64,000 nucleotides of DNA from a virus: the IMG/VR virus record IMGVR_UViG_3300028394_000052, positions 1 through 64,000 of that record, one strand, 5' to 3'. Position numbers and translations under genes: made by a program. The notes below the pieces were generated by a model that was not told where the DNA came from, made no database searches, and saw nothing but the letters and a program-made list of their open reading frames with translations. How positions within the stretch are numbered: position 1 is the stretch's first letter; the number at the start of each line of letters is the position of its first letter. Shown here piece by piece: positions 29,964 through 61,418 of the stretch.

Positions 29964-30566
29964 ATGACAAAAACAATCAATAAAACATCGCCTAAAGTAC
30001 TTGGGCTTGACGTTTCAACCAAAACAATTGGGTGGAGTTTATTTGACATTCAAACAAAAGAACTTTTAGAATTAACTCACGTATCTCCAGTACCAAAACC
30101 AAAGGTTGAAAATAAAATCGAAGAACTTATACTCAAGGGTCATATTTTTAAAGAAAAAATTAAAGACTATGTTGGTATGGGTATTACTCATGTTGTCATT
30201 GAAGAACCATTATTAAATTCTAATAATATCTATACCGTTGGTACTCTTATGAGATTTAATACTTTGGTATGTAAAGAAGTTTATGATGTTCTTGGAATCA
30301 TACCTGAATTTATATCCACCTATAACTCAAGAAAATTTGCATTCCCACACCTTGTCCAACAAAACGACAAGGGTAAACATGTTCTATTTGGTGGTCTTCC
30401 AAAAGATACAGACAAAAAAGTTATAATATGGGAATTGGTTGCAAAACGAGAACCACAAATTATTTGGTCGTATACCAAAAACAATACTCTTAAGAAAGAA
30501 AATTTTGACCAAACCGATGCTTATTGTGCCGCTCTTGGTTATATGAAACTCAAAGAAATTTGGTAA
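29964..30566 (+). CDS. RuvC-like Holliday-junction resolvase
   Basis: This 200-residue RNase H-fold nuclease has KVLGLDVSTKTIGWSLFD with the first catalytic Asp (D16), THVVIEEPLLNSNNI with Glu80, and FDQTDAYCAALGYMKL with D182/D185 at the C-terminal helix. This is the spacing of RuvC-type resolvases, which cut Holliday junctions during recombination and before packaging. It starts 3 bases after the virion gene, but its function groups it with the downstream recombination genes. Confidence 0.85.
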   Translation: MTKTINKTSPKVLGLDVSTKTIGWSLFDIQTKELLELTHVSPVPKPKVENKIEELILKGHIFKEKIKDYVGMGITHVVIEEPLLNSNNIYTVGTLMRFNTLVCKEVYDVLGIIPEFISTYNSRKFAFPHLVQQNDKGKHVLFGGLPKDTDKKVIIWELVAKREPQIIWSYTKNNTLKKENFDQTDAYCAALGYMKLKEIW

Positions 30567-30590
30567 ATTAAAATATTATCATTATCTTTG
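30559..30590 (+). promoter_or_regulatory. Bacteroidota-type promoter TTTG-N20-TATCTTTG
   Basis: TTTG at 30559-30562 and TATCTTTG at 30583-30590 are separated by 20 bases. The box ends 4 bases before the ATG at 30595, so the mRNA should be leaderless or nearly so. Confidence 0.7.
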
Positions 30591-30594
30591 TCGT

Positions 30595-30960
30595 ATGAGA
30601 CATGTGATAAATGATGATGAATCCAAAGCAATTAAGAAAGCAATCAAAAAGTTTTCGGGTAGCGACATATCATTTACGAATGGAACTCTAAGAGGTTCAT
30701 TTAAAATTACAAACTTCAGAAAATATCCCATGCATCATGAAATTGATGTTGAGTTCAAAGGTGAACTTTTTGGTAAGATAAGCGTCCTTGAAGGTAAAAG
30801 ATGGCAGTCATCTGAGATTTATGGTCAAAAAAACATTTCCAAAATAAAAATTAATAAATTAATCAAAAAATGCCTTTTAACCGAGGTTAAAAGTCATGCT
30901 GTTTATTTTGGTATTAATGTTAAATGGGTTGATAGTATAAAAAAAATAACATGGATATGA
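30595..30960 (+). CDS. Hypothetical basic phage protein
   Basis: This 121-residue protein is Lys-rich (AIKKAIKKFSGSD, then KIKINKLIKKCLL), with a central beta stretch (GSFKITNFRKYPMHHEIDVEF). It begins 4 bases after a clear TATCTTTG promoter box, which fixes the start. The stop overlaps the next small gene. The basic character would fit nucleic-acid binding, but no family is recognised. Confidence 0.7.
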   Translation: MRHVINDDESKAIKKAIKKFSGSDISFTNGTLRGSFKITNFRKYPMHHEIDVEFKGELFGKISVLEGKRWQSSEIYGQKNISKIKINKLIKKCLLTEVKSHAVYFGINVKWVDSIKKITWI

Positions 30961-31091
30961 TTTTAATTATTTGGACATTAATAATGTCCGTAGCGGTAGT
31001 ATTTGTAATGATTGAACACATTGTAAGTACAAAATTGAAAGACGGTAATCGTTTCAAAAAATGGTGGAGAGAGAAATTATTGGGTTTTTGA
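30951..31091 (+). CDS. Small single-span membrane protein, 46 residues
   Basis: ATG at 30951 overlaps the end of the previous gene by 10 bases. The protein reads MDMILIIWTLIMSVAVVFVM followed by a positively charged tail (KLKDGNRFKKWWREK). One N-terminal transmembrane helix with a basic cytoplasmic end is predicted. A second ATG at 30957 could also serve. The role is unknown; small membrane proteins of this type are common early phage genes. Confidence 0.55.
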   Translation: MDMILIIWTLIMSVAVVFVMIEHIVSTKLKDGNRFKKWWREKLLGF

Positions 31092-31133
31092 ACAGTAATC
31101 AATCACGTGTGTAGTTAAACTCAAAAAAATTAC

Positions 31134-31141
31134 TATATTTA
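31134..31141 (+). promoter_or_regulatory. Probable -7 box TATATTTA
   Basis: One base off TAnnTTTG and ending 4 bases before the primase ATG at 31146, the same spacing as at 30595, 38098, 53749 and 61044. No clear upstream TTTG at the expected distance. Confidence 0.45.
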
Positions 31142-31145
31142 GTGT

Positions 31146-32060: not shown

Positions 32061-32064
32061 AAAG

Positions 32065-32096
32065 TTTGGTGGTATGAAAAATATGTTGTATTTTAG
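32065..32096 (+). promoter_or_regulatory. Probable promoter TTTG-N20-TATTTTAG
   Basis: TTTG at 32065-32068 and TATTTTAG at 32089-32096 (one mismatch to TAnnTTTG), 20 bases apart, with a 27-base leader before the ATG at 32124. Confidence 0.45.
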
Positions 32097-32123
32097 CTTA
32101 AGAATATAACGATATACACGGAT

Positions 32124-32279
32124 ATGACATTTACATTAGACACCTACCAAAGATTAAAAGTGGCTTACAACACAGCTCGTCAGAACAATTTAGAAGTGTT
32201 CACCTTTGATAATCATGATTTATTAACAGATTATGCAAAGTATATGATAGAGTACTTAACATCAAAATTTGAAAATTAA
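32124..32279 (+). CDS. Small hypothetical protein, 51 residues
   Basis: The frame reads MTFTLDTYQRLKVAYNTARQ, then VFTFDNHDLLTDYAKYMIEY and ends SKFEN. It is a compact, soluble, mostly helical small protein lying between primase and the PD-(D/E)XK nuclease. A promoter-like pair lies just upstream and the next gene starts 3 bases after its stop. No family is recognised. Confidence 0.6.
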   Translation: MTFTLDTYQRLKVAYNTARQNNLEVFTFDNHDLLTDYAKYMIEYLTSKFEN

Positions 32280-32282
32280 AAT

Positions 32283-33125: not shown

Positions 33126-33157
33126 CTTTAATTGATTAAACTTATAAAAAAATAAAT

Positions 33158-34972: not shown

Positions 34973-34980
34973 AAAGAAAT

Positions 34981-35151: not shown

Positions 35152-35154
35152 GAT

Positions 35155-35688: not shown

Positions 35689-38067
35689 ATGAAATGGGAT
35701 TTATTCAATCCGAAACCAGAATTTAATTACAAAACAATGTCAACAAAGTTAGACGTAGAATCATTGGAGAATCCTTATATCCAAGTGGTATGGGAAGACA
35801 CACCAGAGAACTTCACACAAGAAAGAATCAAATCGGTTAAGCAATATTTCCAAAAGAAATATAACTCAACCAATATCAATGTCATCACAAAGGTTAAGAC
35901 CACAGAGGACACACAACAAACGATTGATGTATCAGTTAACATCATGGATAAGAACTACCAAAGAGAACTTATCAAGTCAATGTTGGAATCCAAAGGTCAA
36001 GAACAATATTACGAACAAGTAATGGGAATTGATTCTGCGGTTGAAAATAGATTGACAGCCAACGATGTTGAAGTTACTGCATTTAAGAAATGGCACATCA
36101 AGAAAATTGAGTTCAGTAACTTCTTATCTTATGGTGAGAACCAAGTTATTGACTTTGACCAATGTAATGGTATTACCGTGGTTGAATCAGACCCACCAAA
36201 CTTTGGAGGTAAGACCGTATTAACGGTAGACTTATTATTGTTCTTGTTCTTCAACACAACAACAAAAACACAGAAGGCGGAAGAAATCTTCAATCGATTT
36301 ACCGATAAAAACACGGTAGTTGTTAAGGGTGACATCATCATTGACGGTGAGGAGTATATCATTGCTCGTAAGATTGAAAGAAAGAAATCCAAAACAGGTG
36401 AATGGAATGTTAAGACCGAGTTGGAGTTCTTCAAGAAACTAGCTGATGGACAACTTCAGAACTTTACTGGTGAACAACGTAGAGAGACCGAGAACTTCAT
36501 GAAAACATCCATCGGTAGTATGGATGACTTCTTGATGACAATCGTAACAACAGCATCAAACCTTGAAGATTTATTGGATGCAAAACCAACAGCTCGTGGT
36601 CAGGTGTTAAGCAGATTCTTGGGTCTTGAGTTCTTGAAAAAGAAAGAAGAGACAGGTAAAGAAATCTATTCTGAGTTCTCAAAAGGAATGATGTCAAATG
36701 TTTACAACACAGAATCTTTGAAACAGGATAACGACAGTTCATCAGAACAAATCCAAAAATTTAAAACCGAGATTGAAGAATCTAATGTGAAAGTTAAGGA
36801 TGTTGATTTGAGATTACAGAAAGGTCAGGACTACAAAGACAACTTGTTGAAGTCAAAGTATAGTGACATCGACCAAGAACTTATTGTCCTAAACCCAATT
36901 AAACTACAATCAGACATCACAGATTTTGATGGTTCTTGTGAAAGACTTAGAGGTCAAATCAAAGAGGTTAAGATTGTGGAACCAAAAGATTTTTATCATG
37001 AAGACAAACATGATGAGGTTAAAGAAGGAATGAAAACCACAAACGGTGAACTCATCCTTGCTCAGAACAAAGTTGAAGAGATTGAACAATTGGTTAAGAA
37101 GTTTGGAGATGGCATTCAATGTGAACACTGCGGAATCAAATTGATGGAAGCGGCGCTCACAAAGAAAAAGATTGATGAGTTGGGAGATTGGGAAAAGAAG
37201 GTTGACAAGTTATCCAAACAATGGAAAGACCTTGATTTCAAAGAAAAGTCTTATACTCAACTTAAGAAAGACTTTGATGAATACGAGAGAAACAAACTCA
37301 TCAAAGAAAAATATGAGATTCAATTGGAATCAAGTGAATTGAAATTAGGTCAAGCCAAAGACAAACTTAAGAGGTACGAAGAGGTTCAAGACAAGATTAA
37401 GAAGAACAACGAGATTGATGCTCAGTTGGTGAAGGCTGGATTACGTATTGATGAATTGATTAACGAGAAACGTGGATACGAAAGAATCCAATCAACCAAT
37501 CAAAATCAAATTGAAAACCTTCATGCTCGTATTGAAAAGAATAATGGGGTTATCTTAAAGATTGCCGAAGAGTTTGAACGTGAGAAGATTTACAAGATGT
37601 ATGTCGAGGTGTTTGGTAAGAACGGTATTACAAAGGTGATTATGAAGACCATGATGCCGTTGATTAACTCTGAACTACAAAGACTCCTTCAGGACTCTTG
37701 TTTCTTTAACTTAGAGATTCGTATTAACGACAAGAACGAGGTTGACTTTATCATGATTGATAACGGTACAGGTATTGAAAAACCAATGACAGCTGGTTCA
37801 GGATATGAAAAGACAATCGGAGCGTTGGCAATTAGAGCGGTACTATCAAAGGTATGTTCACTTCCAAAACCTAACATATCGGTTTACGATGAGACTTGGG
37901 GTAAGGTTTCTAATGAAAACTTGGAAATGGTTGGGGACTTCTTCATGAAGTTGAAGGACTACTTTGAGAAAATCTTTGTGATTAGTCACAATCCTTTAAT
38001 TTCAAATTGGGCCGACAATGTGGTTAGAATTACAAAAACTGAAAACATTTCAAAAGTCTCACAATAA
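35689..38067 (+). CDS. Recombination ATPase subunit, gp46/SbcC/Rad50-like
   Basis: This 792-residue protein is taken from the ATG at 35689, one base after the preceding gene; a longer frame from 35650 would overlap that gene. The N-terminal ATPase half has IEFSNFLSYGENQVIDF and NFGGKTVLTVD (P-loop, about residues 165-176). Two coiled-coil arms flank a zinc-hook-like CEHC (about 477-480). The C-terminal half has SGYEKTIGALAIRAVL (signature) and ISVYDETWGKVS (Walker B, about 733). With the gp47-like nuclease it resects DNA ends. The 3' end overlaps a terminator hairpin. Confidence 0.9.
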   Translation: MKWDLFNPKPEFNYKTMSTKLDVESLENPYIQVVWEDTPENFTQERIKSVKQYFQKKYNSTNINVITKVKTTEDTQQTIDVSVNIMDKNYQRELIKSMLESKGQEQYYEQVMGIDSAVENRLTANDVEVTAFKKWHIKKIEFSNFLSYGENQVIDFDQCNGITVVESDPPNFGGKTVLTVDLLLFLFFNTTTKTQKAEEIFNRFTDKNTVVVKGDIIIDGEEYIIARKIERKKSKTGEWNVKTELEFFKKLADGQLQNFTGEQRRETENFMKTSIGSMDDFLMTIVTTASNLEDLLDAKPTARGQVLSRFLGLEFLKKKEETGKEIYSEFSKGMMSNVYNTESLKQDNDSSSEQIQKFKTEIEESNVKVKDVDLRLQKGQDYKDNLLKSKYSDIDQELIVLNPIKLQSDITDFDGSCERLRGQIKEVKIVEPKDFYHEDKHDEVKEGMKTTNGELILAQNKVEEIEQLVKKFGDGIQCEHCGIKLMEAALTKKKIDELGDWEKKVDKLSKQWKDLDFKEKSYTQLKKDFDEYERNKLIKEKYEIQLESSELKLGQAKDKLKRYEEVQDKIKKNNEIDAQLVKAGLRIDELINEKRGYERIQSTNQNQIENLHARIEKNNGVILKIAEEFEREKIYKMYVEVFGKNGITKVIMKTMMPLINSELQRLLQDSCFFNLEIRINDKNEVDFIMIDNGTGIEKPMTAGSGYEKTIGALAIRAVLSKVCSLPKPNISVYDETWGKVSNENLEMVGDFFMKLKDYFEKIFVISHNPLISNWADNVVRITKTENISKVSQ

Positions 38068-38082
38068 AATGTGAGATTTTTT
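38057..38082 (+). terminator. Rho-independent terminator after gp46-like gene
   Basis: TCTCACA (38057-38063), loop ATAAAA, TGTGAGA, then six T. The left arm overlaps the last codons and stop of the gp46-like gene. Confidence 0.8.
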
Positions 38083-38085
38083 CCT

Positions 38086-38093
38086 TATCTTTG
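38086..38093 (+). promoter_or_regulatory. -7 box TATCTTTG of the restriction-modification cassette
   Basis: TATCTTTG begins 3 bases after the terminator T-run and ends 4 bases before the ATG at 38098. No TTTG lies at the usual upstream distance; the terminator occupies that place. Confidence 0.6.
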
Positions 38094-40355: not shown

Positions 40356-40363
40356 TATCTTTG
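40356..40363 (+). promoter_or_regulatory. -7 box TATCTTTG of the sigma operon
   Basis: Perfect TAnnTTTG match, 14 bases before the ATG at 40378. No good TTTG at the usual distance upstream, which hints at activator dependence. Confidence 0.55.
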
Positions 40364-50801: not shown

Positions 50802-50937
50802 AGTAACTAATAATATCGTTAACTAAAGTATATGTTCCGTATATGGTCATCCCTAATACATAGAATCCTAATACTATAGCTCCAATCTGAAATTTACCAG
50901 GACCTTTTTGTTTACATGTTTTACAACCTTCTGTCAT
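50794..50937 (-). CDS. Small single-span membrane protein, 47 residues
   Basis: The minus-strand frame reads [20 protein letters not shown], then [19 protein letters not shown] and ends DIISYFK. It has a CxxC near the start, a basic patch and one transmembrane helix. It overlaps the DnaJ gene end by 8 bases in the opposite direction and starts 4 bases from the next plus-strand gene. Small size lowers confidence; the ordered composition supports it. Confidence 0.55.
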
Positions 50938-50941
50938 ATTT

Positions 50942-51124
50942 ATGAGTATGTTAATTGAGCAAATTATTAAAAGAGTTCTTTATCAATATCTTGACGAGAA
51001 AGAACAAGAAGAATATAAGAAACCTCGTAAGTATAGTAAATCCTATTGTGAATCTACTTCATGTAAAGATATGGGATTTACTCAGAAGGCATCTTGTCGA
51101 CCATACAAAAATTGTTACAAATAA
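50942..51124 (+). CDS. Small Cys-containing protein, 60 residues
   Basis: The protein begins MSMLIEQIIKRVLYQYLDEK and ends CESTSCKDMGFTQKASCRPY, then KNCYK. The four Cys at its end (CESTSC, SCRPYKNC) could bind a metal. The pattern KxMGFTQKASCRPYK looks like a short conserved phage motif, though I cannot name the family. A start at 50948 is also possible. Confidence 0.6.
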   Translation: MSMLIEQIIKRVLYQYLDEKEQEEYKKPRKYSKSYCESTSCKDMGFTQKASCRPYKNCYK

Positions 51125-51126
51125 AA

Positions 51127-51157
51127 TTTGCCTTTTTATGTTTTTTTCTTATACTTG
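51127..51157 (+). promoter_or_regulatory. Promoter TTTG-N19-TATACTTG
   Basis: TTTG at 51127-51130 and TATACTTG at 51150-51157 (one mismatch), 19 bases apart; the ATG of the methyltransferase is at 51173. Confidence 0.6.
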
Positions 51158-51172
51158 TATAAACGTAAAAAT

Positions 51173-52012
51173 ATGCTATCATACATCGGAGGTAAAAGTA
51201 AAATTGGAAAGTGGATTGTCCCTTTCTATGATAAAGATATGGAGACTTATGTTGAGACATTCGGAGGAATGTTTTGGTGTTTCTTCAACATGGATTTAAC
51301 GCAATTCCCAAATCTTAAGAAAGTTGTCTATAATGATTTTAACCCACTCAACTACAATTTATTTCAATGTATCAAGAATCCTGAACAATTATTGGAATCA
51401 ATTAATTCAATTCCATGTCAACAATTCGGTGAGGAAACTACACCGTCAATATATAAAGAACAATTTGTAGAGTTTCAATCTGAAGTATTTGGTAGTGGAT
51501 TTACCATCAATTATCCTGATTATAATGTTGCAGCAAAATATGCTTATGTTTTAACTCAAGTGTTTAGCGGTAGTAAACCTGAGACAAGTTCATTCATAGA
51601 CTTAAAGGGTAAATACAAATCAAAGTACCTTACATTTAGAGATAAGTTATCTAAACCTGATTGGGTTGAACATTTCTTAAAAATAACTGAGGTCGAGAAT
51701 ATGGACTTTGCGGATGTAATTACAAAGTATGATTCACCAACCACCTATATCTATTTGGACCCACCATATTGGAAGACTGAGAACTATTATAATAACCATG
51801 ACTTCGACAGAAAAGACCACGAAAGACTTGCAAATGTATTACATAATGTTCAAGGTAAGTTTAGTTTATCCTACTACGATTTTGAGTTATTACATGAATG
51901 GTTTCCCGAAGAACAGTACCGTTGGGAGAGAAAAGAGTTTGCAAAAGCCGCAGCCGCGAAGAAGGGAACGAAACAAAATATGGGGGAAGAGTTGTTAATC
52001 TTGAATTATTGA
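51173..52012 (+). CDS. dam: DNA adenine methyltransferase, D12/Dam type
   Basis: This 279-residue protein is taken from the ATG at 51173; a longer frame from 51128 would begin before the promoter. It has MLSYIGGKSKIGKWIVPFY and YVETFGGMFW (SAM-binding motif I), YNDFNP, and IYLDPPYWKTENYY with the catalytic DPPY near residue 196. The order (motif I before DPPY, about 280 residues) is that of Dam-like N6-adenine methyltransferases. It is a stand-alone phage enzyme that probably protects phage DNA from host restriction. Confidence 0.9.
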   Translation: MLSYIGGKSKIGKWIVPFYDKDMETYVETFGGMFWCFFNMDLTQFPNLKKVVYNDFNPLNYNLFQCIKNPEQLLESINSIPCQQFGEETTPSIYKEQFVEFQSEVFGSGFTINYPDYNVAAKYAYVLTQVFSGSKPETSSFIDLKGKYKSKYLTFRDKLSKPDWVEHFLKITEVENMDFADVITKYDSPTTYIYLDPPYWKTENYYNNHDFDRKDHERLANVLHNVQGKFSLSYYDFELLHEWFPEEQYRWERKEFAKAAAAKKGTKQNMGEELLILNY

Positions 52013-52033
52013 GTTATTTTTGTATCGTCAATA

Positions 52034-52041
52034 TATTTATA
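52034..52041 (+). promoter_or_regulatory. Late-type promoter box TATTTATA
   Basis: Exact TATTTATA, 17 bases before the ATG at 52059. Confidence 0.45.
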
Positions 52042-52058
52042 GTAATAAAATAACAAAG

Positions 52059-53378
52059 ATGAAATTCACGTCAATATTAAAAAAGGTCATTTTAGAACAA
52101 TCAAGATTTGAATTGTTGTCTGACGCACTTACTAAGCCATCTAAAGATAAAGAAGGTAATAAGGTAAAGCCTAAGATGAGCAGGGAAGAGTTTAACAAGT
52201 TAGTTGAAGCTGACCCAACAACAAGGTTAAATAACGTTGATTTAACTAACGCCGACTCAAAAGAACTTGAGAAGGTTAAAGCTGGTAAATACGTTCAATG
52301 GTTGATTAAACGATACTTAATGCCAAAAACCGAAAGACAACCTGGTGAATCAGGTTATGAACGTGAAGTTCAACAAGTGAAAGACACTTTCATGGAGGAT
52401 TTATATAAGGTTACAGATGACCTTGCAAAGTTTGAAAAGTTTAAAGGTAAAATCCCTCAAGATATGAGAGATATCAATAAGTTAACTCCTGACACATTAT
52501 ACGATACGGTTAAGGACTTTGACTTGACTTTGGCGACAACAACTAAGGCTGAAAGAAAGTTAGCACCTGTTCACCCTGGAGCTAAATTGGTATTTGATGG
52601 ACCAACATGGAGAGTTATTGAAATTGAAAACAAAGGACCTGTAGGTAAAGAGGCCGCTTGTTTTTATGGAGGAAACAATGTAGAAACTAGATGGTGTACT
52701 TCAACACCTGGTACCGACCAATGGTTTAACCGATACATTAAAGATGGTCCTTTATATGTTATATTTAACCCAAATGACTCTGATGTTACTGCTGAAACAG
52801 GATTACCAAAAAATAGATATCAGTTCCACTTCCCATCGAATCAATTTATGGATAAGGATGACCGTCAACAAGATTTGGTTCAATTATTAAACGGACCAAT
52901 GACAGAGTTGAAAAATTTCTTCAAACCTGAATTTGCAAAAGGTTTAACAATTGGTGGTGAGAAATTAGTTATTGATAGTTTCAGTCATGGTGCGGTTGGT
53001 AAATTTATTGGATTATACGGATTGGATGATTTAATTGGTAATTTACCTAACACATTGAAAGAATTTCATATTCAAAACAGAGATAAAAATGGTTTTATTA
53101 TTAATATCCCTGAAGAAATTGGAAGATTCAAAGATTTAACAGGTATTATCTTGGATAATTGTATTGAAAGCATACCTGATTCAATCTGTACTTTACCTAA
53201 ATTAAGATTCTTGGCGTTAAACAACAACGAAAAACTTAGAAGTATTCCTGATTGTATTGCAGATTTACCAAGTTTATACTTCTTGAATCTTAAGGGTAGT
53301 AATAACGTACAAGTACCTGAATCAATCAAGGCTAAGGGCACTGAAATGGGTCCAGGAATGTGGGACCTTCAAGATTAA
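52059..53378 (+). CDS. Leucine-rich-repeat protein with WCTS domain and possible capsid-targeting start
   Basis: This 439-residue protein is taken from the ATG at 52059 rather than a frame opening at 52020. The first 14 residues (MKFTSILKKVILEQ) form an amphipathic helix ending in I-L-E, matching the (I/L)-x-E prohead-protease site. The middle has VFDGPTWRVIEIENKGPVGK, FYGGNNVETRWCTSTPGTDQ, WFNRYIKDG and LYVIFNPNDSD. The same pattern is in the protein 58465-60219 (SCYYGKGTKWCTSAD, FNRYNQDGKLFYIL). The last ~100 residues are leucine-rich repeats (IPEEIGRFKDLTGIILDNC, SIPDSICTLPKLRFLALNNN). LRRs are rare in phage and suggest protein binding. A late box supports a virion or head role. Confidence 0.7.
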   Translation: MKFTSILKKVILEQSRFELLSDALTKPSKDKEGNKVKPKMSREEFNKLVEADPTTRLNNVDLTNADSKELEKVKAGKYVQWLIKRYLMPKTERQPGESGYEREVQQVKDTFMEDLYKVTDDLAKFEKFKGKIPQDMRDINKLTPDTLYDTVKDFDLTLATTTKAERKLAPVHPGAKLVFDGPTWRVIEIENKGPVGKEAACFYGGNNVETRWCTSTPGTDQWFNRYIKDGPLYVIFNPNDSDVTAETGLPKNRYQFHFPSNQFMDKDDRQQDLVQLLNGPMTELKNFFKPEFAKGLTIGGEKLVIDSFSHGAVGKFIGLYGLDDLIGNLPNTLKEFHIQNRDKNGFIINIPEEIGRFKDLTGIILDNCIESIPDSICTLPKLRFLALNNNEKLRSIPDCIADLPSLYFLNLKGSNNVQVPESIKAKGTEMGPGMWDLQD

Positions 53379-53404
53379 TTGTTTAACTATTAAATTTTAT
53401 TATA

Positions 53405-53689
53405 ATGAATGTTGATGTTGAAATATACATGAATAACTTCATCAAGTTCTTCAGGGAAAATCCAGATGACTTATTTACACTTATTCCCAAAGGGAAGGAA
53501 GATGAGTTTTATCGAAAGGTTAAACTAATGTCTTTAGAAAATACTCAAAAAGGTGATGACCCGTCACTAACTCAAAAACAGATTCTTGAAATTTGTGTGG
53601 TGGTTAATGGAGGTGACCCACAAAAACCAAAGAAGAAGTTGGAAAGTTTTATCATGGAAACAAAATTTGGTAATATTATCTTGAATTAA
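53405..53689 (+). CDS. Small hypothetical phage protein
   Basis: This 94-residue protein begins MNVDVEIYMNNFIKFFRENP, then DLFTLIPKGKEDEFYRKVK and ends SFIMETKFGNIILN. It is a mixed alpha/beta soluble protein that looks like a small conserved phage protein of unknown function. It is followed by a strong terminator. Confidence 0.65.
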   Translation: MNVDVEIYMNNFIKFFRENPDDLFTLIPKGKEDEFYRKVKLMSLENTQKGDDPSLTQKQILEICVVVNGGDPQKPKKKLESFIMETKFGNIILN

Positions 53690-53701
53690 GGTTTATAAAA
53701 T

Positions 53702-53734
53702 AATGGGAGATATTTTGTCTCCCATTCTTTTTTT
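53702..53734 (+). terminator. Rho-independent terminator
   Basis: A 9-bp perfect stem AATGGGAGA / TCTCCCATT, loop TATTTTG, then C and eight T. The loop contains the TTTG of the next promoter. Confidence 0.85.
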
Positions 53735-53744
53735 ATTATCTTTG
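53714..53744 (+). promoter_or_regulatory. Promoter TTTG-N19-TATCTTTG
   Basis: TTTG at 53714-53717 and TATCTTTG at 53737-53744, 19 bases apart. The box ends 4 bases before the ATG at 53749. The upstream TTTG sits in the loop of the terminator hairpin. Confidence 0.75.
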
Positions 53745-53748
53745 TAAT

Positions 53749-55401
53749 ATGAAGGAGGTGTTATTCAAAAAAGAGTTCGTGAGCTATGAAACTATTGAGC
53801 ACGAATCTTATAGTGAGTTCCCTTATGTAAAGAGAATGATTCAAAGTCAAACCCTCAATTTTGAACTTGAAGATGGTCCTGAACCAACAAAAAAACATCC
53901 ATTATTTATTTATAAAAAAACCAATAAAACAGAGGAAGAGTTTGTTACCCGATTTGCTGACCAATTGTATTCGGTTACTAGAAATAATGTAACTATTGTA
54001 GTTGAAAGAGATGGGGATAAAGTTGCTATTAAATTATTCTGGGGTTATAAACACAGAAGACCGGGTGTTGTTTGGTTCAAGACAATTAAACACGTTGAAT
54101 TTATTAGTGTGAACACCAAGACTGGTGATGTGTATGTTGGAGGTATTGATAACTACCACTTAAAAAGAAAATCAAAAAAACGAATCAATAGAAATTACTT
54201 TATTGGCGAACCTTTGAATAATTTGAGTTTGTCAATTAGGAATTGTATAAGACGTGTGGATTCTAATCTTGATGTGGATTGTACTCAAGAAGCTTTGGAA
54301 GTTTTTATTCAAACGATTGACCCCATTGATAATTTTGGAGTGTTAACCAATAATCAAAGGTTATTTAAGTTTTATTTAAATAAACGAGGGGTTAAGTTTC
54401 CTAACAATTTCCATATTTACACGAATGAGTGGTTCGGACCTGAGATTAAAAAAATTCTTAAGAAAACTGATAATAGAATGGTTGATGCCGTTATGGTACG
54501 CAATGAGTTATCGGGTAAACAGATTAAGAAAGCCTTACACAATTGTGAAGGTTTGAATCTTCCAATGCTTACCTTGGCTCGTAATATGTTTAATGACGAT
54601 TGGGTTAATCAAGACTATGAGTTAATTTTGGGATGTTTGAATTCAAACATTAATTATTATCCGTTACCTGTAGACTTTAAAGAATTTGTCACCAATGAAG
54701 AATTGAAACGTGTGTTTAAATTGTTTAGACATGTTGTTATACATGGTACATTGGACGCTCATACATTCTATGACCATATGAGATTTTATTGTGATTTGAA
54801 GTTGTATGAACCAAATATTAAATGGATGTCATCTGATGACGATAAAAGTGATTTTAGGGGTGAACATTTGGATTGGGTAGATAAAATACAGTCATATAGA
54901 GAAGGTACCTACTATCGTAAGTACCCTGACTATAGTTATCGGGTCATAAGTGAACCAATTGAACATGGTGGTGAAGTTTATTATCCTGTGTTGTTGGATA
55001 ACAGTAAGAGCTATAATCAGGAGAGTGCAATTCAATCCAATTGTGTTAAAACATATATTGGTAAGTGTGGTTCAATGATTGTGTCTTTGCGTCAGGGTGG
55101 GGTTGATTCAGATGTTAGAGCCACCGTTGAATATAAATTAAGTCAGGCGTTAGTTTCCAAGACTATTTATGTTGACCGAGTTCAATCTTTGGGTAGGTTT
55201 AATAAGAAATTAACTGAAGAATGGGATGACGTTCTATTTAAATTGGATGGACGTATGTTATATTATGTTAAAGATGAAAAATTCGATACAGTCAAAATTA
55301 AAAAGGTTCACAAGTCTGGTTTGGAACTTGAGTCTACTTCTTATTGGAGGGATGATGGCCGTTTGGTCTGGGATAAAGACAAAATTGAGAACATATGGTA
55401 A
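53749..55401 (+). CDS. PcfJ-like protein
   Basis: This 550-residue protein has a C-terminal domain (about 420-500) with SYNQESAIQSNCVKTYIGKC, then SMIVSLRQ and RATVEYKL, and VDRVQSLGRFNKKLTEEWD. This QSNCVxTY, SLR, ATxEY, QxxGxxN order is that of the PcfJ-like family known from conjugative elements and phages. The N-terminal ~400 residues have no recognised motif. The start is fixed by a promoter with a 4-base spacing. Its stop overlaps the next start by 7 bases. The biochemical role is unknown. Confidence 0.7.
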   Translation: MKEVLFKKEFVSYETIEHESYSEFPYVKRMIQSQTLNFELEDGPEPTKKHPLFIYKKTNKTEEEFVTRFADQLYSVTRNNVTIVVERDGDKVAIKLFWGYKHRRPGVVWFKTIKHVEFISVNTKTGDVYVGGIDNYHLKRKSKKRINRNYFIGEPLNNLSLSIRNCIRRVDSNLDVDCTQEALEVFIQTIDPIDNFGVLTNNQRLFKFYLNKRGVKFPNNFHIYTNEWFGPEIKKILKKTDNRMVDAVMVRNELSGKQIKKALHNCEGLNLPMLTLARNMFNDDWVNQDYELILGCLNSNINYYPLPVDFKEFVTNEELKRVFKLFRHVVIHGTLDAHTFYDHMRFYCDLKLYEPNIKWMSSDDDKSDFRGEHLDWVDKIQSYREGTYYRKYPDYSYRVISEPIEHGGEVYYPVLLDNSKSYNQESAIQSNCVKTYIGKCGSMIVSLRQGGVDSDVRATVEYKLSQALVSKTIYVDRVQSLGRFNKKLTEEWDDVLFKLDGRMLYYVKDEKFDTVKIKKVHKSGLELESTSYWRDDGRLVWDKDKIENIW

Positions 55402-55730
55402 GTAAACCAGAATATATTGAAAAACTTGAAGATGGAAAATTATTCTCAACGTTGGAACTTGAGGTTCCTGATGACTTTATAAAGTTCTTGGATGGTCGTG
55501 CATTTACTACAGTTTTTAGTGATAGTTGGATGGAGTTTGAAATGGATGAAATTAAAATCAAAAGTAAAATATATAAAACCAAACAACCATTTTATTTATA
55601 TTTATTTAAAGATTGTGTCGATAAGAAAACTTTGGTTATTTATTATAAAGAAGAACAATTAAACGAATTAAAATTATTTATAAAACAATTATTAAAAACA
55701 TATAAGAATGGAACAATTAACAACAAATGA
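55395..55730 (+). CDS. Small hypothetical phage protein
   Basis: This 111-residue protein begins MVSKPEYIEKLEDGKLFSTL, then LDGRAFTTVFSDSWMEFEMD, and ends LLKTYKNGTINNK. It overlaps the PcfJ-like gene by 7 bases and the thioredoxin gene by 23. Nothing recognisable beyond a compact alpha/beta pattern. Confidence 0.6.
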   Translation: MVSKPEYIEKLEDGKLFSTLELEVPDDFIKFLDGRAFTTVFSDSWMEFEMDEIKIKSKIYKTKQPFYLYLFKDCVDKKTLVIYYKEEQLNELKLFIKQLLKTYKNGTINNK

Positions 55731-56028
55731 ACTTAGAGAAAAGATTAGCAACGGAGAAAACTTCGTATTAGATTTATATGCCACTTGGTGTGGACCATGT
55801 AAAGTTATGTTAAGCAATTTGGGTAAAGTAAATGAATCATTAATTAGTGAATCAACTGACAGACCTAAGTATAATATTTATAAATTCGATGTAGATAACG
55901 ACATGAAATTTATGATGGAGTTGGGTGTTAGAAGCGTACCAACAATAAAAATATTCAAAGAAGGTTCTGAAGTCTTTTCAAGGGCGGGTGTAATGTCACC
56001 AACAGAAGTTCTTGAATTACTTACTTAA
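55708..56028 (+). CDS. trxA: Thioredoxin
   Basis: This 106-residue protein has the active site WCGPCK (C28, C31), FVLDLYATWCGPC as the preceding strand, a KFDVDND strand, and RSVPTIKIFKEG with the cis-Pro. The fold looks complete. It reduces protein disulfides; in phages such proteins can serve ribonucleotide reduction or DNA polymerase, neither of which is encoded in this window. It overlaps the previous gene by 23 bases and shares a base with the glutaredoxin start. Confidence 0.9.
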   Translation: MEQLTTNELREKISNGENFVLDLYATWCGPCKVMLSNLGKVNESLISESTDRPKYNIYKFDVDNDMKFMMELGVRSVPTIKIFKEGSEVFSRAGVMSPTEVLELLT

Positions 56029-56333
56029 TGAGTATGAAAGATTTAAATGTGGTTGTCTATACAATGAACGGATGTCCGTTTTGTACTGACTTTAAAGAAA
56101 TGTTAACTAATGAGGGAATTGAATTTTTTGACCGAGATATTGATGATTATAAAGATGAGTATGATATCTTTGTTGAGATTACAGAGAATGACATGATACC
56201 GGCAATGTTAATCATTGAAGAAGATGGCGACAAACATGAATCATTTTTATATGCTCCTGAAAGAAATTACAACGAATTAAGTGAAGCGGTTACAATTATT
56301 CAGGAACACAGACAAAAACTTGGTCTGATTTAA
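56028..56333 (+). CDS. Glutaredoxin
   Basis: This 101-residue protein has VVVYTMNGCPFCTDFKEML with active-site CPFC (C16, C19), GIEFFDRDIDDY as the second strand and NDMIPAMLIIEEDGD with the cis-Pro position. Together with the thioredoxin directly upstream it forms a redox pair, typical of phages that supply ribonucleotide reductase. The start codon overlaps the thioredoxin stop. The stop converges with the minus-strand gene, sharing 4 bases. Confidence 0.88.
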   Translation: MSMKDLNVVVYTMNGCPFCTDFKEMLTNEGIEFFDRDIDDYKDEYDIFVEITENDMIPAMLIIEEDGDKHESFLYAPERNYNELSEAVTIIQEHRQKLGLI

Positions 56334-57091
56334 AAAATTACAAAGTCTTTTACTTTCTTTTTAATAAGGTCGTATTCCTGAAGTGGGTTGGTTAATTCAA
56401 TAGACCAATCCACTTTTTTCATTTCTGTCTCTAACCAAGACATATCAAAATCAAATACATCCAAGATTGCAGACTTTAATGTTTCATCTTCTTTTTGGTG
56501 TGAGTTTTTAACTGAGAATTGGTTATCACCTGATTCGTCTTTTTTTGTTGACATCGTGAATGTCAAGGTTGAGAATGGATAGTTGTATGGGATGTTATAG
56601 AAAATATGTTTTCCGTAGTAATACATCAACCTTCCCTGTTTCAATGAATAACCATGAGGGAACTCGGAACAAAAAATTAAGTTATTGTCTTCCAAGATTG
56701 GTTTTACATGAAAGTTATGGTCGTAAGACTTTGTATCATCAATTAAATATTCATCACACTGATGCTTATGATACGAGCAATTACTTGAGTTGTTATGATA
56801 TGAAAATGTTATTTCATCTAACGGGTTCAATTTGGAATTATAATCGATTAAATCAATTGTATGAGTTAATTTTAGGTCAACTAATTGTTCTTTAAACTTT
56901 GAGGTGAATTCATCTTTTATTTTTGCAATGTCCAAAGTTTCTTTATAGGTTGTTTTACCTTTGATTACATAAAAGTTTAAACAGTCGGCGACTTGGATAA
57001 TACTTTCCTCGTCTTTTGGAATTTGATTTAATATGAAATCTGCAAATAAATTAACTATTGATAGTTTGCTTGTTGGTGATTTTAATATCAT
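56330..57091 (-). CDS. Hypothetical protein, minus strand
   Basis: This 253-residue protein starts MILKSPTSKLSIVNLFADFI. A central His/Tyr-rich part (SYHNNSSNCSYHKHQCDEYL, HVKPILEDNNLIFCSEFPHG) could bind metal, and the helical C-terminus reads MKKVDWSIELTNPLQEYDLI. It shows no recognised domain. A terminator for the opposing plus-strand operon lies in its 3' end. Confidence 0.65.
   Translation of the reverse strand: MILKSPTSKLSIVNLFADFILNQIPKDEESIIQVADCLNFYVIKGKTTYKETLDIAKIKDEFTSKFKEQLVDLKLTHTIDLIDYNSKLNPLDEITFSYHNNSSNCSYHKHQCDEYLIDDTKSYDHNFHVKPILEDNNLIFCSEFPHGYSLKQGRLMYYYGKHIFYNIPYNYPFSTLTFTMSTKKDESGDNQFSVKNSHQKEDETLKSAILDVFDFDMSWLETEMKKVDWSIELTNPLQEYDLIKKKVKDFVIF
56381..56419 (+). terminator. 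Rho-independent terminator inside the opposing gene
   Basis: Stem AAGTGGGTTGGT / ACCAATCCACTT with one G-T pair, 11-base loop, then T-run. It ends the thioredoxin-glutaredoxin transcript within the 3' end of the minus-strand gene. Confidence 0.65.
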
Positions 57092-57114
57092 TGGTATTTC
57101 TTTTGGAATTTATT

Positions 57115-57134
57115 ATTGTTTAAGTATAAACAAT
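57115..57134. repeat. Perfect inverted repeat between minus-strand genes
   Basis: ATTGTTTA-AGTA-TAAACAAT, an 8-bp perfect palindrome with a 4-base centre, in the gap between the gene 57154-58140 and its downstream neighbour. There is no T-run on either side, so an operator or RNA-stability hairpin is more likely than a terminator. Confidence 0.5.
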
Positions 57135-57153
57135 TTAATTCGTAAAAAGAATA

Positions 57154-58140
57154 TTAAATGTAATCGTTAAAGTACAAGTTGATATTTTTATCTACTTTTC
57201 TTGAGTCAGGATAATCAGGAGGTATTACAGATAAACAATCGTTTTGGTCTTTTATAACACCCAAGTAATCGCCCCAATATTCAAGTGTCCCGTAACTATA
57301 ACTTTTGTTTTCTCTTAAATAATCAACAATGTTACTTTCAAAGTTGTGTATTGGTGCCTTATATCTTTGTACTTCAGTATCATTTTTCCAAGTGTGAGGT
57401 CTTGTTACCCATTCACCATCACCAAAATATTTTGAAAGTTCTCCCATAATATCTTCGAATAATTCTTCTTCATATGCTGAGTTATATGAAGAATTATAAA
57501 TAATATATAATTCACTTTTAAGGTCTCCTAATTCGTCTTTCATTAATTCATTCATAGTTTCCTCATCGTCAACTATTTCGTCAATGTTAGATTCATTTAC
57601 AGTAACATATTCAGTATTTTCTCTTTGAGCGATAGACTCAAGTACTTCCGTATCTGTGGATAATTGTTGACCATCTAAAGTTTGAATGATATACTCTTTT
57701 AATCTCTTTAAATTTTCTTTGGTAAGTTCTTGAATGACATCTCTGTAAACATCATCAGTTGAATCGTAATAAAAATCTCTATCATATTCACCTGATAATA
57801 TGCCTTCAACAGTATCTTGAGATATATCATATCTGTTTCCATCACAGAATAATGCGGATAGTTCTCCTATACTATCGAGAATAAGATATGGAACTCCATC
57901 AACTAATTCAACATCATTCAAATACTTCAACACATATTCCCAAAACTTTTGTTTATCGTTTTCGTAATAAAATAATAGTAATTCGTTTTGATAATGTTCG
58001 GAAAGTTTTCCTTCAGGGTCTAACTCATTAATTAGACCTCTTTTATTAACAAACTTAAGAAATGTATCAATGTCGTTAAAGTACTGAATAAAATCAGTAT
58101 CTCCATCATTAAACTTTTCTATTAATTCATTAATGTCCAT
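57154..58140 (-). CDS. Hypothetical acidic protein, minus strand
   Basis: This 328-residue protein is taken from the ATG at 58140 (MDINELIEKFNDGDTDFIQY), fixed by the TATTTATA box 4 bases upstream; a longer frame begins at 58167. It is very rich in Asp and Glu, with repeated Tyr/Asp stretches (YDISQDTVEGILSGEYDRDF) and no recognised motif. Such acidic proteins sometimes mimic DNA, but nothing here proves that. Confidence 0.7.
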   Translation of the reverse strand: MDINELIEKFNDGDTDFIQYFNDIDTFLKFVNKRGLINELDPEGKLSEHYQNELLLFYYENDKQKFWEYVLKYLNDVELVDGVPYLILDSIGELSALFCDGNRYDISQDTVEGILSGEYDRDFYYDSTDDVYRDVIQELTKENLKRLKEYIIQTLDGQQLSTDTEVLESIAQRENTEYVTVNESNIDEIVDDEETMNELMKDELGDLKSELYIIYNSSYNSAYEEELFEDIMGELSKYFGDGEWVTRPHTWKNDTEVQRYKAPIHNFESNIVDYLRENKSYSYGTLEYWGDYLGVIKDQNDCLSVIPPDYPDSRKVDKNINLYFNDYI

Positions 58141-58144
58141 ATAA

Positions 58145-58152
58145 TATAAATA
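58145..58152 (-). promoter_or_regulatory. Late-type promoter box TATTTATA (minus strand)
   Basis: On the minus strand TATTTATA is followed by TTAT and the ATG at 58140, the same as at 21641. Confidence 0.5.
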
Positions 58153-58153
58153 C

Positions 58154-58180
58154 GAAAAAAGGGACAATTTTCATTGTCCC
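58154..58180 (-). terminator. Rho-independent terminator (minus strand)
   Basis: On the minus strand a perfect 8-bp stem GGGACAAT / ATTGTCCC with a 4-base loop is followed by six T, 26 bases after the stop of the small gene 58207-58368. Confidence 0.8.
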
Positions 58181-58206
58181 CTCATTAATTTCTTAAATGT
58201 GTTAGA

Positions 58207-58368
58207 TTACTTACTCGTTTTGTTTACGTTGTAGTACTTCTCAACCGTTTTTTTAATGGCTGATTTGACACTTTCGTTAGTTTGTTGTCTTTGAGCTGCA
58301 GCCTGTTGAACCTGTTGAGGTGAAGGCTGTTGTGATTGGTTTCCGTTATTTTTGCATCCGCATCCCAT
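58207..58368 (-). CDS. Small Cys/Gln-rich protein, 53 residues
   Basis: The minus-strand frame reads MGCGCKNNGNQSQQPSPQQV, then QQAAAQRQQTNESVKSAIKK and ends YYNVNKTSK. It has an N-terminal CxC, a Gln/Pro-rich middle and a helical Lys-rich end (VKSAIKKTVEKYYNVNK). It has its own terminator directly downstream. It looks like a small conserved phage protein; the function is unknown. Confidence 0.6.
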   Translation of the reverse strand: MGCGCKNNGNQSQQPSPQQVQQAAAQRQQTNESVKSAIKKTVEKYYNVNKTSK

Positions 58369-58391
58369 GGTATTGTATTTTAGTTAGTTTA

Positions 58392-58421
58392 TTTGTTTCC
58401 TGATAATAAATACTATCTTTG
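58392..58421 (+). promoter_or_regulatory. Promoter TTTG-N18-TATCTTTG
   Basis: TTTG at 58392-58395 and TATCTTTG at 58414-58421, 18 bases apart, upstream of the gene at 58465 (43-base leader). A late-type TATTTATC box lies at 58444-58451 in the leader, so this gene may be read in both phases. Confidence 0.6.
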
Positions 58422-58443
58422 TGGAAATATAAGAGTAAAAGAA

Positions 58444-58451
58444 TATTTATC
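58444..58451 (+). promoter_or_regulatory. Late-type box TATTTATC
   Basis: One base off TATTTATA, 13 bases before the ATG at 58465. Confidence 0.4.
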
Positions 58452-58464
58452 AATTAAAGATACA

Positions 58465-60219
58465 ATGGATTTTTTAAAATTAATACAAGAAGGACGAGTT
58501 GACGACTTCAAAGCCAAGTACTCACAAAAGTTTGGTACAGAGAATGTAAATAAAATTCTTGGGGCGGTGCCACAAAAATATTTGGATTGGGTTGGTAAAA
58601 ATCTTGACATGGTTAATTTTGAAGACAACCTTTCAAAACTCAAGCAAGCCTTAGATAAGTTTGAAAGGGTATCAACAAACTTACCTATAACAGATATCTT
58701 CCAATATAAAAGTGTTGGACAATTATTCTCGGCGATTAGTCAATATGATGAAAGACAAAGACGAGTAGTCAAACAAGTTGAAGGTGGGAATGTTGTTTAT
58801 GATGATGATAGATTTTTTGTTGTGAATCCTTTAACCCATGATTCATCATGTTATTATGGTAAAGGTACTAAATGGTGTACTAGTGCTGATTCGGATTACC
58901 AGTTCAATAGATACAATCAAGACGGTAAGTTATTTTATATTTTGGACCGAAATGCTCCAAGTAATAATAAGTTCTATAAAGTTGCATTACTTCAAAAATT
59001 CGATGGGGATAAAACTTATTATGATGCTTTGGATGCAACGGTTAATGGTGGTTGGATTTTTGGAACAAATAAGTTAAACGAGATTTTAAGTTCAGTTGAT
59101 GATTATATTAAATCAACTTATCCTGAACAGGTTAAGATTTATAGTGATAAAGAGTTGGCTCGAAAAGAAAGAGACCGATTAGAAAAATTAAGAATAGCTC
59201 AAATTTTAAGAGAAAGAGAAAATGCCGCTCAAGAAAGACGTGAAGAGAATGAATGGGCGTTACCCAACGCACCTGAAATTGGATTGAAGGCACATGCGTT
59301 ATTACGAGTTCTTGAGATAGAAGGTGATATTGAAGTAATGACCAATCAAGACCGAGGTGAGATTGCAAGAATTGAAAATGAAATTACCAGACTTCAAGCG
59401 GAATATGATAATGACGAAGAAGTAAGAGGTGATTTGTTGGATGAAATAAGTGAGTTGGAAGATGAGTTAACCGAATTAGATAACAAGATAGATGTGTATA
59501 ATATTATCCCAACAGGAACTTATTATGATGCGTCGGAGTTTGAAGTGATTGGAGCTCCTGAAGTTGAAGACCGTAGATATGTGGTTGGTGATGAGAATGA
59601 GATGGAAACAAGTGCTTATGAATATGTTGAACAATTAATTGATGATATAGGGTATGAAGGATTTAACTCTAATTTTGTGCAACAACATATTGATGAGGAT
59701 GCGGTTATTTCATATGCCGAAGATTTATTCAACCAAGACGTTTATGATAGTCCTGATTCTTATTTGGAAAATGACCAAAGAAATTTATCTACAAAACAAG
59801 AAGAAAAGATTGCAATTTTAAATGATAAGATAGAAAAATATAGAGAGTTAATAACCAAATTGGAGGGTAGTATGGATGGTGAGGATGATGAGGATATTGA
59901 AGAAAGGATTGACGAGTTGAATGATGAGATTACCGAGATGGACACAGAGATTGAGGATATCAAAGAAGACCCTGAAGGTGATTTCCCTGAGGATTTACTT
60001 GAAGAGATAATTGAAAGTAGAGTTCAAGAAGCAAAAAATGATGTAGAAGGTTTTATGAATGAGTATGGATTAGAAATGAATGAGTATATAGACAAAGATG
60101 CGTTCATTAAAGGGATTGTTGAAGAAGATGGATATGGTACCACACTAAATGGTTATGATGGAAGTGCGGATGAAATCGATGTTGAAGGTGTGACCTTTTA
60201 TGTAATGAGAATTGATTAA
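58465..60219 (+). CDS. WCTS-domain coiled-coil protein with possible capsid-targeting start
   Basis: This 584-residue protein is taken from the ATG at 58465 (MDFLKLIQEGRVDDFKAKYS); the frame opening at 58393 contains the promoter. The start helix ends in I-Q-E (residues 7-9) before Gly, like the T4 prohead-protease site. Residues about 110-200 hold DDDRFFVVNPLTHDSSCYYG, KGTKWCTSADSDYQFNRYNQ and DGKLFYILDRNAPSNNKFYK, the domain shared with 52059-53378. The rest is a long charged coiled coil (RIENEITRLQAEYD, EDDEDIEERIDELNDEITEM). Double promoter upstream. Head-internal or virion-associated protein is a guess. Confidence 0.65.
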   Translation: MDFLKLIQEGRVDDFKAKYSQKFGTENVNKILGAVPQKYLDWVGKNLDMVNFEDNLSKLKQALDKFERVSTNLPITDIFQYKSVGQLFSAISQYDERQRRVVKQVEGGNVVYDDDRFFVVNPLTHDSSCYYGKGTKWCTSADSDYQFNRYNQDGKLFYILDRNAPSNNKFYKVALLQKFDGDKTYYDALDATVNGGWIFGTNKLNEILSSVDDYIKSTYPEQVKIYSDKELARKERDRLEKLRIAQILRERENAAQERREENEWALPNAPEIGLKAHALLRVLEIEGDIEVMTNQDRGEIARIENEITRLQAEYDNDEEVRGDLLDEISELEDELTELDNKIDVYNIIPTGTYYDASEFEVIGAPEVEDRRYVVGDENEMETSAYEYVEQLIDDIGYEGFNSNFVQQHIDEDAVISYAEDLFNQDVYDSPDSYLENDQRNLSTKQEEKIAILNDKIEKYRELITKLEGSMDGEDDEDIEERIDELNDEITEMDTEIEDIKEDPEGDFPEDLLEEIIESRVQEAKNDVEGFMNEYGLEMNEYIDKDAFIKGIVEEDGYGTTLNGYDGSADEIDVEGVTFYVMRID

Positions 60220-60233
60220 GATTTTTATTTGGT

Positions 60234-60241
60234 TATAATTG
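60234..60241 (+). promoter_or_regulatory. Probable -7 box TATAATTG
   Basis: One mismatch to TAnnTTTG, ending 4 bases before the ATG at 60246. An imperfect ATTG lies 19 bases upstream (60211-60214). Confidence 0.45.
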
Positions 60242-60245
60242 TTGT

Positions 60246-61025
60246 ATGGGGAGAAGAAAGAAAATAGCATTTAAGCTAAATCCTGAGTGGATGTTAAAAG
60301 AGCCGTTGGATTTTGAATACAATAAATATACTTTATTGGATTACATACAGAAATGCGAGCAGAGGTTAGATAAGTTTGAAATTTATCCTGACTTTGTTGA
60401 GTTGTCGTTACACTTGGCAAACATGCAATCATTATCCAAAGAAAATACTCTCCTACTTACAGACAAAAAATTTCATTCTTATGATGATGAAATCATGTTA
60501 AAAGATTTGTATCCAAAGAAGCCAAGAGAAATGTCTAAAGAAGAGGAGGACGAGTTGGGTAGGACAATCAAATATTCAAACAACAAATTATTTGACACAT
60601 TCAATATTGCAAAATCTATTTGGAACATTGTGTTTGATGAAGTTGAAATCTCAATCAAAAAGAATAAAGAACACTTGGTTGCGGGTTCAGGATATGTTTT
60701 TTATTATAGAAAGTTGGATAATAAAGTTTATGTTTGGGAATATGAAATCAAAAAGAAACGAGGAGATATAAACATAAGTCAAACTTATATAACTAAGATA
60801 TATGAGAACACTCCTGACAAAACAACATTACTTTCAATCATCGAAAACCATTCCAAGTTTAACAAAACTGAATACTATAAAGACTTACCAGTATTTGAAA
60901 TGTCATGTAGTCAGAATTTTCCAATGGAACAAGCCATCGTACCAATCATGAAACGAAAAATAACCGCATATATTTTTCAAATAGTTAACATGGTTAAGGT
61001 AAAAAACTTTGACTCTGAAATATAA
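60246..61025 (+). CDS. Hypothetical phage protein
   Basis: This 259-residue protein begins MGRRKKIAFKLNPEWMLKEP. It is helical with a beta-rich middle (GYVFYYRKLDNKVYVWEYEI) and a Lys-rich end. It has its own probable leaderless promoter. It contains no recognised catalytic motif. The basic start (GRRKK) might contact nucleic acid. It is followed after 18 bases by a GTG-start gene with the same promoter type. Confidence 0.65.
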   Translation: MGRRKKIAFKLNPEWMLKEPLDFEYNKYTLLDYIQKCEQRLDKFEIYPDFVELSLHLANMQSLSKENTLLLTDKKFHSYDDEIMLKDLYPKKPREMSKEEEDELGRTIKYSNNKLFDTFNIAKSIWNIVFDEVEISIKKNKEHLVAGSGYVFYYRKLDNKVYVWEYEIKKKRGDINISQTYITKIYENTPDKTTLLSIIENHSKFNKTEYYKDLPVFEMSCSQNFPMEQAIVPIMKRKITAYIFQIVNMVKVKNFDSEI

Positions 61026-61039
61026 TATACTTATATTTG
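61008..61039 (+). promoter_or_regulatory. Promoter TTTG-N20-TATATTTG
   Basis: TTTG at 61008-61011 and TATATTTG at 61032-61039, 20 bases apart; the box ends 4 bases before the GTG at 61044. Confidence 0.7.
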
Positions 61040-61043
61040 TGTC

Positions 61044-61418
61044 GTGGGATTCAATAAACGACATATCAATATTGAAAGAAGTTTAAAGTTACTTCATGAA
61101 AATAAATTGAAAGAGTATTACGGTAAGAGTGATGCTCTTTTTTTTGAAGATAAAGAAAGTCTTAAGGTTTATGACTTACACAATGAAGGTAATACAGATG
61201 AAGAAATTTTAAAAATAATAACTAAACAGATGGATACTGAATCAACTAAAAAATTATTGTCTAAATTAAGACAACCCATTCACATCGATTATATTGCAAA
61301 GTATATCCTAAGAATTCCTGAGGATGAGGCAAGAGTTGAACTAAACAAACTTATTGAAGAAAATTTAATCGAAGAATCTACCTATGCAAAAGATTATTAT
61401 GTGATTAAACCCTTGTAA
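61044..61418 (+). CDS. Hypothetical protein with possible winged-helix C-terminus (GTG start)
   Basis: This 124-residue protein starts at a GTG, supported by a perfect -7 box 4 bases upstream. The N-terminal half is charged helix (NIERSLKLLHENKLKEYYG). The C-terminal half reads HIDYIAKYILRIPEDEARVE, then LNKLIEENLIEESTYAKDYY, which has the layout of a small winged-helix DNA-binding domain. Its upstream promoter makes it an early-gene regulator candidate, but this is inference. Confidence 0.6.
   Translation: MGFNKRHINIERSLKLLHENKLKEYYGKSDALFFEDKESLKVYDLHNEGNTDEEILKIITKQMDTESTKKLLSKLRQPIHIDYIAKYILRIPEDEARVELNKLIEENLIEESTYAKDYYVIKPL

Follow-up and report, generated by a model that had tools for sequence, protein, structure and literature searches.

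Two promoter boxes at a preferred distance from start codons might specify leaderless mRNAs in a jumbo phage group of freshwater Bacteroidota

The closest described systems are the promoters of Bacteroidota. In F. johnsoniae, 4–5 nt separate the promoter box from the transcription start, and 13% of the leaders measure 10 nt or less (PMC6847099). Leaderless mRNAs make up 5.5% in F. psychrophilum, and 3.7% of the 5' UTRs of B. thetaiotaomicron are shorter than 10 nt. Among phages, the late promoters of T4 have no -35 element (PMC2988020). For the bS21 protein encoded by jumbo phages, a late role has been suggested in turning host ribosomes towards the messages of the phage, without the selected message feature having been identified (PMC9723584).

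We analysed a stretch of 64,000 nucleotides (the window), which corresponds to bases 1–64000 of a 98,797-base uncultivated virus record. It encodes a primase, an exonuclease, SbcC/SbcD-like proteins, a RuvC-like resolvase, a virion structural protein, a DNA methyltransferase and a sigma factor. Searching with the primase returned 51 related viral loci. Several of them sit on contigs of 290–326 kb, so the 98.8-kb contig very probably represents one piece of a jumbo phage genome. Three relatives of 295–326 kb (G008, G005 and G004) served for the main comparison. They carry genes for a phage bS21 (L165:8711-8896 in G005, L150:10309-10497 in G008 and L183:1697-1888 in G004), of which the G005 copy stands in reverse orientation within the terminase, portal, protease and major head genes, in a region outside the window's contig; a phage-encoded bS21 could influence the choice of mRNA by the ribosome. 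Judged by these relatives, the window probably comes from a jumbo phage of the bS21 type that infects freshwater Bacteroidota. Isolated phages yielded no near relative by megablast or by a search with a 734-aa protein of the window, Rfam elements were absent from the window, and a phage IF3 was searched for and absent. Positions 2881–21285 on the minus strand form an 18-kb gene block with glycosyltransferase- and methyltransferase-like proteins; it contains no exact class A box and no leaderless class B box, as defined below, and is probably transcribed as one or a few long operons.

A sequence-only reading of the window had placed TAnnTTTG-like boxes 4 nt before six start codons, and the position proved right at all six. 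Direct reading showed that four boxes match TAHHTTTG exactly (class A; starts at 30595, 38098, 53749 and 61044), and the boxes of 31146 and 60246 are variants, each one base off with the position unchanged. All six lie on the plus strand. The box at 30583..30590 reads TATCTTTG-TCGT-ATG in front of a 121-aa gene (ATG 30595), and 10 loci share it at distance 4. The same box precedes a 232-aa gene (38086..38093, TATCTTTG-TAGT-ATG, ATG 38098) and a gene of 550 aa (53737..53744, TATCTTTG-TAAT-ATG, ATG 53749), while TATATTTG-TGTC-GTG (61032..61039) leads to the GTG at 61044 of a 124-aa gene. The variants are TATATTTA-GTGT-ATG at 31134..31141, upstream of the DNA primase (ATG 31146), and TATAATTG-TTGT-ATG at 60234..60241, upstream of a 259-aa gene (ATG 60246). 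Upstream of the primase gene, nine relatives carry the exact TATATTTG at distance 4. In both G004 and G005, the homologues of 60246 and 61044 have a box at the same place (-12) that is exact or close to the consensus, and so does the G004 homologue of 53749; both 61044 homologues have ATG where the window has GTG. Because homologues keep the position of the box, the weak sites at 31146 and 60246 can be upheld. A further TATCTTTG at 40356..40363 on the plus strand stands 14 nt before the ATG at 40378 of a DUF6576 gene, leaving a short leader, and is kept in most homologues.

The TTTG reported 19–20 nt upstream of three boxes is present as well, at 53714-53717 (19 nt before the box of 53749), at 61008-61011 (20 nt before that of 61044) and at 30559-30562 (20 nt before that of 30595). 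Its conservation at 30595 is partly coding, because it falls where the RuvC-like ORF ends (its final codons, ..KEIW, stop), and we discounted this copy as independent evidence. Promoter and coding constraint overlap here at the end of the RuvC-like ORF, in window positions 30559-30566. The proposal that the boxes reset several start codons applies to one gene: at five of the six, the start next to the box was already the longest ORF start, and only the ATG at 38098 displaces an upstream GTG (38071).

The spacing was counted for every box on both strands against each downstream ATG opening an ORF of at least 50 aa, without a gene caller. In the 98.8-kb contig, TAHHTTTG stands at distance 4 from 7 ATGs, against a mean of 0.45 at distances above 10 (Poisson P 5e-7), and the GTG at 61044 is an eighth site. 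The counts at distance 4 were 25 in G008 (1.9 expected), 9 in G005 (1.3) and 4 in G004 (1.3). The excess in G004 is weak (P 0.05). Across 32 non-redundant relatives, the distance-4 peak reached 28 against a mean of 2.7, although homologous genes are included and not all cases are independent. As the relatives are mutually related, family counts are the safer figure for cross-genome comparison. Mismatched, reversed and T4-type control boxes gave no spacing peak; these controls and the distance histograms rule out a chance match. The enrichment of distance 4 in the contig and the three relatives agrees with the sequence-only reading, which had called the arrangement a repeated design. The fixed 4-base spacing it described is the modal and enriched distance and no strict rule, as leadered copies of both classes of box exist.

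Unbiased counting of k-mers at fixed distance from starts brought out TATTTAT as well as TTTGT. TATTTAT at 4–5 nt before ATG occurs 13 times in the contig, 40 times in G008, 49 in G005 and 32 in G004 against 1–4 expected. Over both classes, the P values fell between 1e-5 and 5e-38 in the contig, G008 and G005, and for this box the value in G004 was 5e-20. In the window, this phage-specific class B box lies at 27744..27750 on the plus strand, 5 nt before the ATG at 27756 of the 734-aa protein, which belongs to an unknown family in a structural neighbourhood. The box of this gene is found at distance 5–6 in 20 of 28 distinct upstream regions whose flanking sequence has diverged, and in the most distant relatives it is kept with a longer leader. 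Further plus-strand copies lie at 2603..2609 (5 nt before ATG 2615, 89 aa), at 21720..21726 (7 nt before ATG 21734, 896 aa, hence near-leaderless) and at 50937..50943 (4 nt before ATG 50948, 58 aa), where the G005 homologue has the same class and spacing. On the minus strand, boxes at 21642..21648 (ATG 21636, 57 aa) and 58146..58152 (ATG 58140, 328 aa) both stand 5 nt from the start and have the same class in G004, G005 and G008.

The earlier assignment to Bacteroidota-type promoters stands for the sigmaABfr-type -7 boxes, which are enriched phage-wide; it had overlooked the second class, TATTTAT at 4–6 nt, so that the design is not exclusive to TAHHTTTG. Residual fixed-distance k-mers were mainly leadered class B boxes and A-rich leaders, and we rejected a third promoter class. 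Neither the T4 box TATAAATA, which gave no spacing peak as a late signal, nor E. coli-type sigma70 promoters, which were no more frequent than in shuffles (window 50000-64000), were retained.

The two classes differ in their upstream element and in the genes they precede. In box-aligned logos, TTTG at a gap of 19–20 nt accompanies 18 of 53 class A sites against 2 of 153 class B sites; the -33 element is enriched in class A without being universal, and class B consists of [A/G]TATTTAT without it. Gene families are nearly class-pure, with 43 carrying only class A, 98 only class B and 2 both. Among the 25 commonest families of each set, from which functions were taken, class A includes primase, methyltransferases, HNH endonucleases, phosphoesterases and at least one endolysin, and class B includes tail fibre, tail, virion structural, tape measure and baseplate proteins and lysins. 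Labels of early and late are imperfect, because some class A genes, such as the endolysin, are lysis-like. Both classes can meet at one site. In G008, fused promoters of the form TATCTTTG-TATTTAT-5 nt-ATG at L154:2844 and L154:1370 on the minus strand join two boxes that serve one start codon, a leaderless class B box and a class A box whose leader measures 8 nt. In the divergent pair L010:2577 (minus) and L010:2626 (plus; contig 84577 and 84626), 48 bp separate the two starts, one of which has a class A box and the other a class B box.

Among 1125 called starts, taken uncurated as the first ATGs of non-overlapping ORFs, class A distances numbered 47 at 3–6 nt, 4 at 7–11 nt and 29 at 12–20 nt, and class B distances 123, 17 and 93, respectively. 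Because distances of 7–11 nt are rare, the leader in both classes appears to be either absent or about 8 nt and longer, and this bimodality suggests that leaders of 3–7 nt are translated poorly in Bacteroidota. In F. johnsoniae leaders, A at -3, -6 and -12/-13 is a positive signal (PMC6847099). In the phages, A(-3) is less frequent at leaderless starts, a difference that is significant in class B (34% against 52%, p=2e-4), and the leaders that follow leadered copies are A-rich. Loss of this context would be expected if no leader were present to be selected.

Terminators provide evidence of a different kind. In the 45 nt upstream, 10 of 53 class A and 29 of 153 class B starts (both 19%) have an intrinsic terminator, against 24 of 962 other starts (2.5%; Fisher 3e-6 for class A and 4e-13 for class B). 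Because intrinsic terminators concentrate just upstream, the boxes are best understood as promoters. In many of these cases, the T-run ends close against the box. In the window, a terminator with a 9-bp stem and a T-run (38055..38085, plus strand) abuts the class A box at 38086, another (53702..53736, plus strand) abuts that at 53737, and a terminator stem at 58158-58183 on the minus strand abuts the class B box of the 58140 gene. At contig position 91842, GTGGGGGTTTTTTTG is directly joined to TATCTTTG-TGAT-ATG; the whole junction of terminator, promoter and start codon can fit within about 40 nt. Because the T-run abuts the box, transcription of such genes must begin between the T-run and the ATG, and we regard these junctions as the strongest argument for leaderless mRNA that sequence can offer. 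The distance from the start of the T-run to the start of the box (the contig, G004, G005 and G008) has two peaks, one at 5 nt (9 cases, some of them homologous) and one at 15 nt (9 cases), separated by one helical turn; in F. johnsoniae, AT-rich patches precede the promoter box by one and by two turns (PMC6847099).

The same boxes might in principle be signals for translation or mRNA processing at a fixed distance from the AUG, since that distance is counted from the start codon. This reading is very improbable: the class A box is already known as the -7 element of sigmaABfr promoters and comes with the matching -33 element, the boxes come after terminators, and in far relatives (L055, L057 and L061) the leader lengthens while the box stays. 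The leaderless starts also lack an A-rich translational context.

A second alternative to a dedicated promoter design is that nothing special is involved, and that host-like promoters, the leaderless minority of Bacteroidota and tight packing by genome compaction together produce the pattern. Among 31 Bacteroidota host loci, TAHHTTTG peaks at distance 4 too, more mildly (11 against 2.9), with a similar gap before leadered copies, and short leaders are on record for F. johnsoniae (PMC6847099) and leaderless mRNAs for F. psychrophilum. Because the hosts have this leaderless minority, class A is a known kind of promoter used more heavily, and because they show the milder peak, it may need no phage-specific design. 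Yet the leaderless share among box-bearing starts amounts to roughly half for the phages and roughly one fifth for the hosts, and this explanation would cover class A, not class B. The host loci gave no class B peak at these spacings, nor did phi14:2 and crAss001 (first 50 kb each), and immuto (100 kb) had only 3 such sites (P 0.04), so that none of these three phages was taken as a clear bearer of the spacing design. We therefore consider this explanation unlikely for the pattern taken together. Class B is new; in the open-licence papers searched, we found neither this class nor the pairing of A and B in identical geometry nor the sharp split into leaderless and leadered copies.

Which factors might read the two promoter classes can be considered from the sigma genes. 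The window encodes a sigmaABfr-like factor at 40892-41689 on the plus strand, with regions 1.2, 2 and 4 and without region 1.1; it occupies the same place in 31 related loci (62–100% identity) and is about 37–45% identical to the primary sigma factors of Bacteroidota. The DUF6576 gene (40378-40890) lies directly upstream and is conserved together with it; its class A promoter is usually leadered rather than leaderless. A second candidate is a 248-aa gp55-like protein, the sole match to phrog_234 ('late sigma transcription factor') in each of the three relatives, for which T4 gp55 was the only PDB profile match (E 0.13). Its AlphaFold model has low confidence (pLDDT 65), and sigma factors account for the majority of its best structural matches, which are weak. 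The assignment is remote (E 0.001–0.13), and as the gene lies outside the 98.8-kb contig, its presence in the window's phage is predicted from the relatives. The gp45 C-terminal domain PF09116 had no Pfam match, which a divergent clamp could escape. An RNA polymerase beta subunit (PF00562) was searched for and not detected; we therefore rejected a phage-encoded multisubunit polymerase and assume the host core polymerase.

Because class B, like the T4 late promoters, is without a -35 element, we favour the gp55-like factor as its reader, with moderate confidence. Class B might instead be read by the sigmaABfr-like factor of the window, leaving the gp55-like protein with another role or a further class. 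This factor is conserved and of the Bacteroidota primary-sigma type, and T-12 and A-11 of the host box recur in class B without a shift of register. It keeps a full region 4, however, although class B has no -33 element; its regions 2.3–2.4 are nearly host-like and predict a host box, and the missing -35 fits gp55-type factors. That it reads class B thus seems doubtful.

We propose that the phage would rely on the core RNA polymerase of its host and on two kinds of promoter with one shared geometry, one copied from the host and one of the phage's own. Class A, TAHHTTTG with an optional TTTG 19–20 nt upstream, would be read by the host sigmaABfr, the phage sigmaABfr-like factor or both, and would drive replication and other early-type genes. 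Class B, [A/G]TATTTAT without the -33 element, would most likely be read by the gp55-like late sigma and would drive mainly tail, virion and lysis genes, possibly late. In both classes, the box would often be set such that the first transcribed base is the A of the AUG, giving a leaderless mRNA; other copies would have an A-rich leader of about 8–16 nt after the box, and in about a fifth of cases a terminator would close the preceding unit just upstream. As a whole, with the leaderless mRNAs included, we consider this model likely. It would let promoters be read from sequence in a widespread group of uncultivated giant phages, among them a late class that we found in none of the open-licence papers searched. 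If messages truly start at the start codon, this would be a concrete lead on late-gene translation in such phages, and leaderless or near-leaderless late mRNAs are a testable candidate for the message feature selected by bS21. The full chain, in which the gp55-like sigma makes late mRNAs with no or very short leaders from TATTTATA promoters and phage bS21 in host ribosomes favours them over leadered host messages, is a speculative extension that we hold to be distinctly improbable.

Compared with known systems, the relatives resemble the bS21-encoding phages of freshwater Bacteroidetes in Chen et al. 2022 (PMC9723584) in size (about 320 kb) and, as seen in G005, in a bS21 on the reverse strand in the block of terminase, portal, protease and major head genes; the words promoter, sigma and leaderless are all absent from the main text of that paper. 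A fixed-distance logic of this kind also underlies the leaderless bacterial genes in Zheng et al. 2011 (PMC3160421), whose -10 box lies about 10–12 bp before the start; the box there is TANNNT, and Bacteroidetes were left with many 'atypical' genes. Class A shares the -7 box, the TAHH rule and the -33 TTTG with the sigmaABfr promoters of F. johnsoniae, F. psychrophilum and B. thetaiotaomicron, whose known gap from box to transcription start equals the 4-nt gap of class A to the AUG; these hosts differ in their published leaderless share of 3.7–13% against about half of the box-bearing starts in the phages, two different measures. Class B resembles the T4 late promoters (gp55/gp33/gp45) in having a single box without -35 before structural genes, and its phages likewise have a T4-type head and, in the relatives, a remote candidate for a gp55-like protein. 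The T4 late box TATAAATA differs from the class B box TATTTATA or TATTTAT(A). Class B might therefore work like a T4 late promoter without being a member of that group by sequence, and it is placed for leaderless mRNA.
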